Source of the DNA: a virus
Virus record (IMG/VR): IMGVR_UViG_3300030419_004277
Coordinates: 1 to 59,880 of that record
Strand: one strand, 5' to 3'
Length of the DNA stretch: 59,880 nt
Shown in pieces: positions 10,098 through 24,408 of the stretch. The position numbers and the translations under genes are program-made. The notes under the pieces were generated by a model, which was given only the letters and a program-made list of their open reading frames with translations, made no database searches and was not told the DNA's origin. Within the stretch, counting starts at the first letter, position 1. Every line of letters starts with the position of its first letter.

Positions 10098-11042
10098 TTA
10101 AATGTTATGTAACTCCATGTACTTTTTTACAGCAAGTTCTTTGTGTTTTGCCTCAATCATAATATCAACATCATTACCATAAGTGTCAATATAATCGTAG
10201 ACATAATCAGAATGGGCTTGAGGTCTAATTGACTCGTCAAGTCGTTCCTTACTGCGACTCTCGCTATAATGGACAACTGGTGTAATCCCCTCAGGCCAAG
10301 TTGATATAGCCATCTCCAAAGCCTCTTGTTCACTAAGCCCACCATCACAAAACCTGTGGTGATGGTAGTCAAACACGATGGGCACGCCAATATTTTTGTA
10401 CACTCCATTGTATAACTCCTTTACTGAATACATTGTTTGTTTGTCATCATTCTCTACCGTAAGACGAGATTTAACTCTGTTAGGTAGTCTTTCAAAATTT
10501 TTACAAAATCTCTCCATTGATTTAGGTTTATCGCCATATGCTCCACCAATATGAATATTGATTTTGTTGTATGGTGTACGACTCAAATTCATCATATCAA
10601 ACACATCACCGTGCATTGTCAAATCACCGATACAATTCTCAACAACATGGTCGTGTGGTGATGTTAGAACATTGAAAGGACCAGGATGAGATGTAATTCT
10701 AACGCCGTGTGTATCAACCTTAACACCAGCAGAATGTAAATACATCTTAATTTGTTTTAGGTCTTTTAAGTCTGTCCATTCATATTCAGACTTCCAAGGT
10801 GCTAGTCCACTTGTGATACGAAAAAACTTGTAACCATTTAGTATGTTCCAATCTATAATCTTATCTAAGTCCATAGAATTTGCTAGCGTAAGTTCACTAG
10901 CATAATCAACACCTTTAGTATCAAAGGTTCTCTTAATCATACTACGACCTGTAGTGATTGGTTTTACTCCTTTTTCTTTTCCACCCCACATTTGTGGATA
11001 AGAAAGTTGCATATTTATACACGCATAACCAAATTTATTCAA
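10098..11042 (-). CDS. uvsE: UV-damage endonuclease (UVDE/UvsE family)
   Basis: A 314-residue TIM-barrel nuclease that nicks DNA 5' of UV photoproducts. Family features are the N-terminal GYACINMQL, RITSGLAPW, the HGVRITSHPGPF strand, the metal-ligand segment LTVENDD and the IVFDYHHHRFC motif. The length matches the family. The start is TTG, with AAGGAG about 9 nt upstream. The promoter at 11112-11140 precedes it. A phage copy would repair sunlight damage, which suits a virus of surface waters. Confidence 0.9.
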   Translation of the reverse strand: MNKFGYACINMQLSYPQMWGGKEKGVKPITTGRSMIKRTFDTKGVDYASELTLANSMDLDKIIDWNILNGYKFFRITSGLAPWKSEYEWTDLKDLKQIKMYLHSAGVKVDTHGVRITSHPGPFNVLTSPHDHVVENCIGDLTMHGDVFDMMNLSRTPYNKINIHIGGAYGDKPKSMERFCKNFERLPNRVKSRLTVENDDKQTMYSVKELYNGVYKNIGVPIVFDYHHHRFCDGGLSEQEALEMAISTWPEGITPVVHYSESRSKERLDESIRPQAHSDYVYDYIDTYGNDVDIMIEAKHKELAVKKYMELHNI

Positions 11043-15066: not shown

Positions 15067-15095
15067 AATTTACTAAGATTTTGGTAATTTGTCAA
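15067..15095 (-). promoter_or_regulatory. Sigma-70-like promoter inside the nucleosidase gene end
   Basis: TTGACA at 15090-15095, a 17-bp spacer and TAAATT at 15067-15072. The -35 lies within the last codons of the nucleosidase gene. It would drive the 57-residue gene and the methyltransferase operon. Confidence 0.55.
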
Positions 15096-15777
15096 GCACT
15101 TTTTTCTTAAATTCTACAATACCATCAGCTAAATTTGCTTCCCAATCTTCGTGTGCCTGTTCATCTGCACCATCAGTAATATACTTAAATGATATAAAAG
15201 GAACATCATATAAATAACAAACCTTGGCTAGAGCATATGCTTCCATATCCACAACTTCACCATAGTAATTAGTTTTATCTTCTACAAAATTATCTCCTGT
15301 ACCACAAGTTGCATTTCTTCCAATTGGATTAAATTCTATATTTTGTTGTTGTATAATAACAGGTGGATCTTGTTCGAATGGCGTCTCACCTCTCATAAAT
15401 CCTAGACCTGTAACATCCATATCTCTTTGTACAAACTTTGTACAATCAACAAGCGTTTTTCTTTTTATTTTACGACTACCAGCAGTTCCATAGTTGATTA
15501 TCAAACTATAAGGAATATGGCTACCGTGTTTACCAAAATGTTTTGTTAATTCATATGTAGCATTTACTTTGCCGACACCTGTGTACAAAACATTGTAATC
15601 TTTTAACTTACCTTGTGTCTCTACTTCAAGAGCAGATACTATTAATATTTTTTTCTCTAAATTTCCATAACTCATAAGATTCTTATTCCCTTTTGTATGT
15701 TTAGGTTCGTATGGACACATTAAACAACCATGTCCACAACAATAACCTCTTTGTATTAAAAACTCTCTTGATAACAT
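15073..15777 (-). CDS. Cys-rich (DUF5522-like) domain fused to an MTA/SAH-nucleosidase-like domain
   Basis: 234 residues in two parts. Residues 8-27 carry four Cys (RGYCCGHGCLMCPYEP), which look like the short DUF5522 family usually found as a free-standing protein. Residues 40-234 form a PNP/UDP-phosphorylase fold like 5'-methylthioadenosine/S-adenosylhomocysteine nucleosidase: SALEVE supplies the base-contact Glu, VDMEAYALA the ribose-binding Met-Glu, and TDGAD the catalytic Asp. In a phage with two or more SAM methyltransferases it could clear SAH. The Cys domain may bind metal. The fusion is unusual. Confidence 0.75.
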   Translation of the reverse strand: MLSREFLIQRGYCCGHGCLMCPYEPKHTKGNKNLMSYGNLEKKILIVSALEVETQGKLKDYNVLYTGVGKVNATYELTKHFGKHGSHIPYSLIINYGTAGSRKIKRKTLVDCTKFVQRDMDVTGLGFMRGETPFEQDPPVIIQQQNIEFNPIGRNATCGTGDNFVEDKTNYYGEVVDMEAYALAKVCYLYDVPFISFKYITDGADEQAHEDWEANLADGIVEFKKKVLDKLPKS

Positions 15778-17711: not shown

Positions 17712-17813
17712 TCATCGTCTTTTTTTGAAATATACTTTTGGTGGTCCTACTCTTTTTTTTAATTCTAATAATGTCGTTTTTTTGGACATTTTACCTTTTT
17801 GTTTTTTTGTCAT
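17712..17813 (-). CDS. 33-residue basic peptide coupled to the SelW gene
   Basis: The ATG overlaps the TGA stop of the SelW gene (ATGA). The peptide is lysine-rich (MTKKQKGKMSKKTTLLELKK) and ends in FKKRR. The junction is typical for real genes in this genome, but such a low-complexity peptide could be fortuitous. Confidence 0.4.
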   Translation of the reverse strand: MTKKQKGKMSKKTTLLELKKRVGPPKVYFKKRR

Positions 17814-18043
17814 GTTACTTTTTGATAGCCCTCTAATAAATCCTCTATTTCATTTTTAGTTGGAAACCTACCTAAATCTTTTTTACTAAAAATTAAGCTG
17901 TTATTTAGTGTGACTTCGAATACACCACCAGAACTTTCAATCATTTTGGCTTTAATACCAAATTGTTTTTTTAGTGATTCTCTCAAACTGAGAGCTCTAG
18001 GTTCATAGTTTCACATCATACAATATTCAATTGTAATGTCCAT
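17810..18043 (-). CDS. SelW/Rdx-family selenoprotein (in-frame TGA as Sec)
   Basis: Reading through one TGA (18011-18013) gives a complete 77-residue Rdx-family protein: MDITIEYCMMUNYEPRA, then ESSGGVFEVTLNN and LIFSKKDLGRFPT. Selenoprotein W and relatives have CxxC or CxxU near residue 10, followed by Y-PRA, G-FEV and SK--GRFP; all are here. The TGA falls exactly at U (residue 11). The ATG has GGAG 6 nt upstream. The protein continues in the same frame to its TGA stop at 17810. A SECIS-like hairpin follows the Sec codon (17980-17994). The family is a thioredoxin-like thiol-selenol redox protein. Host or phage Sec machinery is needed to make it. Confidence 0.85.
17980..17994 (-). promoter_or_regulatory. 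Bacterial SECIS-like hairpin of the SelW gene
   Basis: On the mRNA, CTCTCA pairs with TGAGAG (6 bp) around the loop GTT. The loop begins 22 nt after the TGA. Bacterial SECIS elements have a short stem with a G at the start of the apical loop, about 16-37 nt past UGA. The hairpin is within coding sequence, as expected. Confidence 0.7.
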
Positions 18044-23182: not shown

Positions 23183-24304
23183 TTACTTTAATATTGTTAT
23201 CTTTACAGCATCATTATCATTTATGATGTAATAAATACCAGCAGGTAAATTGCCTGTATTCCAAACATATTTACCCTCTAAGTCGAATTGTTTTATTAAT
23301 CTACCAGTAATATCATAAATAATTGTATAGCCGTTGCCAAAAATACTCACATTATTATTTGATGGGTTAGGAAAAGCAATAACTTTAGATTCACTCAATA
23401 ATGAGTATTGTTTTGTTAACCGCTCAAATTCTGATGGTGATACTATTGATTCAAGGTATCTAATAGCTCGTTGTTGATTTCCACCTATAACCTGTTGTAA
23501 TAAAAAAATAACATCTAAAACATTTATTGTACCGTCATCATTAATATCCGCACTTTCTATTGAACACTCATTATTAGCATAACCTAACACTAAATCTACT
23601 AACATCAATATGTCAAATAAATTAACAAAATTATCACCATTTAAGTTACCTACATAAAAAGAAATGTTATCACAAGGATCACAATAATCACCAATGCCGT
23701 CTAAATCATAATCCTCTTGGTTAGGATTGTATTCCTCTACACAATTATCAACATCATCTAATACACCATCCTCATCCATATCTAATATTAGCGTAGATAA
23801 ACCTGTTTCTATTGCCGTAATTATAGCACTTTGATTAAAACCAGATTGGGAATATATAACTTGACCAGCACCATTAATAACGATATTATGTGGCACATAT
23901 CCAACACCAAATAAAGAATAGATATTACTACCATTATTATCATCTAAAACCGGTAATGTTTGACCAAATGATGTCGCCCATCCCTCACAACTGTAAGGTT
24001 GATTCCAATCCATACCTGCTGTAACTACTTCCACTCTTTGTCCTAAATACTCTTGATAAATATACTCAATGATCGGAGCCTCCGATTGACAAGGTCCTCA
24101 CCAAGTTGCGAATGAAGCTATGAATACAACTTTGTTATGTCCAACAGAATCATAAGACCAATAACCATCGCCGTTGTAACATATTTCCGCACCAAAATCT
24201 TCTACAAAATCACCCTCAACATATGTTTGTGCTAAAACTAAATCTGATAAACCAGAAAACAAAATGAACCCAATCATCCAATATAATATTTTTTTGATTA
24301 TCAA
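23183..24304 (-). CDS. Secreted TlpA-like selenothioredoxin with dockerin and T9SS sorting domain
   Basis: A single 373-codon frame interrupted by one in-frame TGA at 24098-24100. Signal peptide at 1-26. Thioredoxin domain at about 27-165: VVFIASFATWUGPCQSEAPI, where the TGA replaces the first Cys of WCGPC (residue 69), and the cis-Pro in GYVPHNIVING (138). Thrombospondin-3-like calcium repeats at 174-213 (DMDEDGVLDDVDNC). Two dockerin-type calcium loops at about 218-275 (NGDNFVNLFDI, NDDGTINVLDV). Type IX sorting domain at 307-373 (FPNPSNNNVSIFGNG, YDITGRLIK, LPAGIYYI). The TTG start has AAGGAG at a good distance. A SECIS-like hairpin follows. It should be exported and attached or released at the outer surface. 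Confidence 0.85.
24072..24086 (-). promoter_or_regulatory. Bacterial SECIS-like hairpin of the thioredoxin gene
   Basis: ATCGGA pairs with TCCGAT around loop GGC. The loop starts 17 nt after the TGA codon and begins with G. An alternative fold adds TCAAT/ATTGA below with a bulge. The position matches bacterial SECIS elements. Confidence 0.65.
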
Positions 24305-24408
24305 AATATTCTCCTTATTAAATTAATTAACAGATACCAAAGTGTAAATGAAGTCGTGGGTAACAAAATTACCCAAACAAATAAATTAAACCAGTCTATT
24401 TTTCTCAC
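24301..24408 (-). CDS. Small membrane protein (35 aa)
   Basis: A GTG start overlaps the deformylase TGA. Two hydrophobic stretches (DWFNLFVWVILLP and FTLWYLLINLI) make it a one- or two-span peptide. Its stop overlaps the TTG start of the thioredoxin gene. The coupling on both sides supports translation. Confidence 0.5.
   Translation of the reverse strand: MRKIDWFNLFVWVILLPTTSFTLWYLLINLIRRIF

Follow-up and report, generated by a model that had tools for sequence, protein, structure and literature searches.

Does an in-frame TGA at the redox motif of a phage-borne thioredoxin gene encode selenocysteine (Sec), and if so, what would such a protein do and where did its gene come from? We address this question in the IMG/VR virus record IMGVR_UViG_3300030419_004277, of which the whole stretch analysed, hereafter the window, comprises 59,880 bases with a GC content of 31.7%. 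When the TGA is taken as a residue, the minus strand from 24304 to 23183 reads as a single open frame of 373 codons, in which we found no frameshift and no further lesion; the TGA at codon 69 (24098-24100) is the only one in the frame and lies in the context FIASFATW-U-GPCQSEAP. A sequence-only reading had proposed that this TGA replaces the first Cys of a WCGPC motif in an otherwise intact gene and that readthrough joins two open reading frames without a frameshift, and frame reading and homologues bear out both claims. Its further claim that the product is a selenoprotein is supported by the conservation of the TGA, the existence of Cys homologues, a covarying hairpin and the presence of SelA, SelB and tRNA-Sec in the nearest host genomes. 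We conclude that TGA-69 is almost certainly read as Sec, as judged from sequence comparison, and that the gene very probably encodes a genuine host-derived selenoprotein, which would be decoded by the host Sec machinery and probably acts as a surface-exported thiol-disulfide oxidoreductase.

We found that the TGA is shared by viral and cellular relatives of the gene. A first scan of viral contigs returned L001 (87% identity) and L002/L015 (58% identity), both with TGA, and a scan for the W-TGA-GPC pattern added L003/L016 and L008/L014. All four other viral relatives, 58-87% identical, carry TGA at the same codon (5/5 including the window), and a protein-alignment scan recovered no additional viral copy and none with Cys. 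Three of the seven viral stretches with the pattern (L004, L005 and L009) matched by chance, in frames unrelated to this gene, and were set aside. In INPHARED phages, the thioredoxin query gave just two weak, distant matches (31-36% identity over ~100 residues). The genome scan returned three records, all of Candidatus Neomarinimicrobiota and all with TGA (L010, NZHK01000043; L011, PAPB01000031; L012, JAAZYX010000021), and relatives were present in 79 of the 245 genomes of this phylum that were searched. Among the cellular homologue rows retrieved, 53/69 have TGA and 16/69 Cys. The sequence-only reading had suggested scoring homologues for Cys or TGA at position 69, and across the 73 distinct motif sequences retrieved the first redox position is TGA in 57 and Cys in 16.

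These counts bear on whether the gene is simply a WCGPC thioredoxin gene in which the TGA arose by nonsense mutation or by an error of sequencing; in favour of this reading, TGA is one base from TGT and TGC, and Cys homologues exist. We consider this extremely improbable, because the identical TGA recurs across many assemblies, in 57 distinct sequences that include five viral contigs, which excludes a sequencing error or a pseudogene. Additionally, between the window and L001 the part after the TGA has 0.068 nonsynonymous (dN) and 0.70 synonymous (dS) substitutions per site, indicating that the downstream part is under selection as a protein, and a covarying hairpin follows the TGA. Homologues that reveal the gene as a pseudogene with further lesions, named in the sequence-only reading as a result that would speak against it, are not what we observe: the TGA is kept, and the frame downstream is under purifying selection.

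Next, we investigated this hairpin. A hairpin resembling a Sec insertion sequence (SECIS) had been predicted 17 nt past the TGA, and we confirm it, with the loop GGC beginning at that distance; counting the T of the TGA as position 1, positions 15-20 pair with 24-29 and the loop spans 21-23. When this peptide is recoded at random with synonymous codons at phage usage, only 0.2% of the recodings yield a hairpin of equal quality. The four inner pairs together with the loop G are present in 49 of the 57 sequences with TGA but in none of the 16 with Cys (Fisher p = 1.4e-10, an optimistic value since the sequences are related). In a set of 40 TGA sequences chosen for gap-free alignment in the hairpin register, 38 cells of the helix are changed on both sides versus 13 expected by shuffling, and covariation reaches 0.36, compared to 0.128 in shuffled alignments (0/500), with slid controls no higher than 0.15. 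The pair 17-27 is seen as C-G, U-A and G-C, and RNAalifold recovers the identical helix unprompted. Bacterial SECIS (bSECIS) elements are described as having a loop of 3-9 nt with a G among its first two positions, a stem of 4-16 bp and a distance of 16-37 nt after the UGA (PMC13188914), and the GGC loop, 6 bp stem and 17 nt spacing agree with this description. Synonymous conservation is raised near the hairpin (0.74 versus 0.52 elsewhere) but is not unique in sliding windows, and we give it no weight. A search of the window with Rfam returned nothing at gathering scores.

TGA is reassigned in some phages and bacteria, and codon 69 could be read as tryptophan, cysteine or glycine if the code of the phage or its host were altered or if either supplied a suppressor tRNA. 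We find this scarcely credible here: TGA closes 23 of the 66 long frames of the window as an ordinary stop, which rules out a general reassignment, a search of the window yielded no tRNA, and the TGA sits at a redox position with a SECIS-type hairpin downstream and with hosts that possess SelA, SelB and tRNA-Sec. For decoding as Sec, the three nearest cellular genomes all contain SelB, SelA adjoining SelB, and tRNA-Sec, in which the UCA anticodon was read in the sequence. Of the 245 phylum genomes, 175 have a SelA match above its cut-off (177 at E up to 1e-60), and SelA is found in 48/51 genomes with a TGA homologue versus 129/194 others (p = 3e-5). Three single-cell genomes of SAR406, as this phylum is also called, have been listed with only orphan SelD (PMC5029168, Table 1). 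The window and the four related viral records, fragments among them, yielded no tRNA-Sec above cut-off, and the redox genes of these viruses would therefore rely on the selenium metabolism of the host.

When placing the viral sequences on a tree of the domain, we observe that all five fall inside a 16-row TGA clade (Shimodaira-Hasegawa-like approximate likelihood ratio test, SH-aLRT, 99), where they are interleaved with L010 and L011 (SH-aLRT 97 and 92), and well-supported branches require at least two changes of viral label. Repeated transfer of the gene is likely on this topology, and because the viral rows are few and nested, its direction was likely mostly from host to phage. Neomarinimicrobiota have a large family of cellular selenoproteins from which the phage gene was probably acquired; judging by these homologues, it is not peculiar to phages. 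In that family of secreted WUxxC proteins (L028-L097), single genomes reach as many as four matches (G121, G122 and G123), the motif variants include WUPSC, WUGGC, WUSPC and WUTVC, and exchange between Sec and Cys is repeated on the family tree. A second gene bears on the host: a DUF5522 and nucleosidase fusion (15073-15777, minus strand), also present in the viral locus L002, has relatives in only 3/245 phylum genomes, two of which hold the nearest selenoproteins, and this supports Neomarinimicrobiota as the probable host.

Sec could be inserted and the phage gene still be a passenger, cargo with little role in infection, and the two or more separate viral placements among host genes could reflect repeated chance capture. 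We judge this unlikely, given that dN/dS is low and the gene is kept by a group of phages. Moreover, the phage protein has 373 residues versus ~490 in the three nearest host proteins, which suggests trimming and not decay, and the same phage carries a second, SelW-like selenoprotein whose TGA is kept in all its viral relatives.

Several observations weigh against a host-derived gene decoded through this hairpin. The bSECIS energy rule asks for a minimum free energy of at most -7.5 kcal/mol (PMC13188914); the 45-nt region reaches -7.8 kcal/mol through an alternative pairing, whereas the hairpin itself has -5.9 kcal/mol and misses the rule. As the minimum free energy of the single sequence favours the other pairing, the support for the hairpin is comparative. 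The L014 hairpin contains a bulged U and pairs in a shifted register, and seven further TGA homologues lack the canonical register. Finally, the assignment of Neomarinimicrobiota (SAR406/Fidelibacterota) as the host is indirect. We also note that the canonical hairpin with its GGC loop is absent from the TGA homologues L055, L076, L088, L093, L095 and L096, where the SECIS may take another form or sit elsewhere.

Upon examining the domains of the joined protein, we find that the proposed chain of signal, thioredoxin, thrombospondin type 3 (TSP3), dockerin and type IX secretion system (T9SS) modules stands for the most part. AhpC-TSA/Redoxin/Thioredoxin and Dockerin exceed their Pfam cut-offs, and the T9SS tail scores 25.9 bits against the NCBIfam model TIGR04183 (cut-off 23) and, just under the cut-off of 27, 26.3 bits against PF18962 of Pfam. 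The TSP3 match stays below its Pfam cut-off (17.6 versus 25 bits) yet aligns clearly to thrombospondin repeats, and the signal peptide was recognised by inspection. Structure prediction, which the sequence-only reading had also suggested, bears out the thioredoxin fold for the domain alone (AlphaFold2; predicted local distance difference test, pLDDT, 85; predicted template modelling score, pTM, 0.85), whereas the full-length model is poor (pLDDT 56) and only the thioredoxin domain is modelled with confidence. The best PDB match of the domain model is ResA (template modelling score, TM, 0.78-0.83; ~22% identity), and ResA, DsbE and CcmG all match it with TM of ~0.75-0.86. The UGPC motif occupies domain residues 44-47, at the N-terminal end of the first long helix (45-61). 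SprA, the T9SS translocon, was found in the three nearest host genomes (3/3, SprA_N over cut-off) and in 0/14 controls. Export is supported by these domains and by SprA in the host genomes, and the signal peptide and T9SS tail would place the protein on the surface of the infected cell.

The same frame would allow two products if most ribosomes stopped at the UGA and released a 68-residue secreted peptide, with Sec readthrough as a minor, selenium-regulated outcome. Inefficient Sec insertion at UGA has been reported for many selenoprotein mRNAs, such as those of glutathione peroxidases (PMC8310308), but the 68-residue piece is without most of the thioredoxin fold and carries no sign of a functional unit, and we give a dual product little probability.

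Taking the full-length selenoprotein as the product, a mechanism can be proposed in which a marine phage lineage took the gene from Neomarinimicrobiota. In the infected cell, SelB of the host, together with Sec-tRNA(Sec) that has been charged via host SelA and presumably SelD, would bind the hairpin past UGA-69 and insert Sec. The signal peptide would then direct the protein across the inner membrane and the host type IX system would carry it across the outer one, and the sorting tail would be cut off as the protein anchors at, or leaves, the cell surface. By analogy with thiol-disulfide oxidoreductases of the ResA/TlpA type, Sec-69 would attack a disulfide or oxidant and Cys-72 would be the resolving residue, while the TSP3 and dockerin modules may serve as calcium-stabilised spacers or docking parts. 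As for the benefit to the phage, our guess is that the enzyme shields the thiols of the infected cell's envelope or surface from oxidants, or performs another redox task there.

The features of the two selenoprotein genes are collected in Table 1. Of these, the SelW-like gene has viral relatives (n = 13) that all retain the TGA (13/13) and nearly all carry the CTCAGTTTGAG hairpin with the loop GTT; in INPHARED phages we found no SelW-like match. The occurrence of two independent selenoprotein genes in one phage makes each of them more credible. The marine phage lineage is T4-like by gene content. The WUGPC gene lies among phage genes, the window having those for a head maturation protease, PhoH, ThyX and Hsp20, and an endolysin gene adjoins the homologue in L014. 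The phage also encodes a UV endonuclease, UvdE (10098-11042, minus strand). From 26522 to 56766 on the minus strand, ~30 kb of tightly packed genes include several that match glycosyltransferase, UDP-glucose dehydrogenase and epimerase families, a block that possibly serves surface glycan modification.

Table 1. Coordinates of the two selenoprotein genes and their elements in the window.
Feature	Coordinates	Strand	Details and basis
Shine-Dalgarno-like AAGGAG before the TTG start	24311..24316	-	upstream sequence ...TAATAAGGAGAATATT then TTG
Selenoprotein gene, 373 codons, one in-frame TGA	23183..24304	-	start TTG 24304..24302, stop TAA 23185..23183
N-terminal signal peptide, ~residues 1-25	24230..24304	-	KKILYWMIGFILFSGLSDLVLA then Q; by inspection; hydrophobic helix 2-18 in full-length model
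TlpA/ResA-type thioredoxin domain, residues 26-172	23789..24229	-	Pfam; AlphaFold2; PDB match ResA
Sec codon TGA-69, at the first redox residue of WUGPC	24098..24100	-	frame reading and homologues
Hairpin ATCGGA-GGC-TCCGAT	24072..24086	-	loop GGC 24078-24080, begins 17 nt after TGA; comparative and folding
TSP3 (calcium-binding) repeats, residues 175-213	23666..23782	-	Pfam below cut-off, and alignment
Dockerin type I domain, residues 221-274	23483..23644	-	Pfam, NCBIfam
T9SS type A C-terminal sorting domain, residues 311-373	23186..23374	-	TIGR04183, PF18962
SelW-like selenoprotein, CMMU, Sec TGA 18011-18013	17810..18043	-	NF041051 95.8 bits (cut-off 88); hairpin CTCTCA-GTT-TGAGAG

The sequence-only reading knew of no described phage protein of this kind. 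Our literature searches, which covered open-access papers and whose silence is not proof, likewise found no described phage selenoprotein; the protein itself is not phage-specific, as it belongs to a cellular family. On balance, we favour the view that phages of Neomarinimicrobiota carry the first described selenoproteins of prokaryotic viruses, namely a T9SS-exported TlpA-like WUGPC protein and a SelW-like protein, that these would be made with the host Sec machinery, and that the surface enzyme may change redox conditions on the outside of the infected cell. Descriptions of Sec use have so far come from cells and from a small number of animal viruses, and the selenoprotein genes described here belong to bacterial viruses. 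Automatic annotation of phages cuts such genes in two at the TGA and overlooks them. A search of the window for the AhpC-TSA family gave no match, probably because the TGA splits the frame or an initial filter excluded it, and PHROGs holds no family for the WUGPC protein. On the cellular side, the exported selenoproteins of the ocean phylum Neomarinimicrobiota form a broad, apparently unlisted family: we found no published description of the WUxxC family in the literature, and no NCBIfam model scores above cut-off over its Sec domain.

Among viruses, the glutathione peroxidases of molluscum contagiosum and fowlpox are selenoprotein genes captured from hosts (PMC8310308); these poxviruses are eukaryotic viruses that use the eukaryotic SECIS system, and the enzyme differs from the WUGPC protein. 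A tRNA-Sec gene has been reported in Basilisk-like Bacillus phages (PMC6145125), which links phages to Sec decoding through the tRNA, whereas the phages studied here carry the selenoproteins and no tRNA-Sec was found in them. In bacteria, TlpA/Prx-like UxxC and marine SelW-like selenoproteins are already known (PMC1088965, PMC2398784, PMC13188914). The prokaryotic UxxC selenoproteins reviewed in PMC13188914 include thiol-disulfide isomerase-like (cd02966), Prx-like (PF00578) and redoxin (PF08534) proteins, and the TlpA/Prx-like ones likewise have a thioredoxin fold in which Sec takes the first redox position and Cys the second; the families listed there are cellular, unlike the phage-borne gene, and the words phage, virus and viral are absent from that review. 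The Omp28-related selenoprotein family NF045500 (hypothetical protein GOS_C) also has a UxxC motif, and its C-terminal part matches phage residues 158-273 with 97 bits; we rejected membership, as the cut-off is 200 bits and the match covers profile positions 257-376 only, with the Sec domain outside it. The oxidoreductases ResA, CcmG and DsbE share the fold and motif position of the phage domain but use Cys, whereas the phage protein has Sec for the first Cys and adds extracellular TSP3, dockerin and T9SS modules. The phage gene nests among those for the secreted WUxxC proteins of Neomarinimicrobiota; L010, L011, L012 and their relatives have the thioredoxin domain, the TGA and the hairpin in common with the phage protein, and the full-length host proteins L010-L012 also contain TSP3, a dockerin-like part and a T9SS tail, from which the phage copies differ in their shorter C-terminal part.
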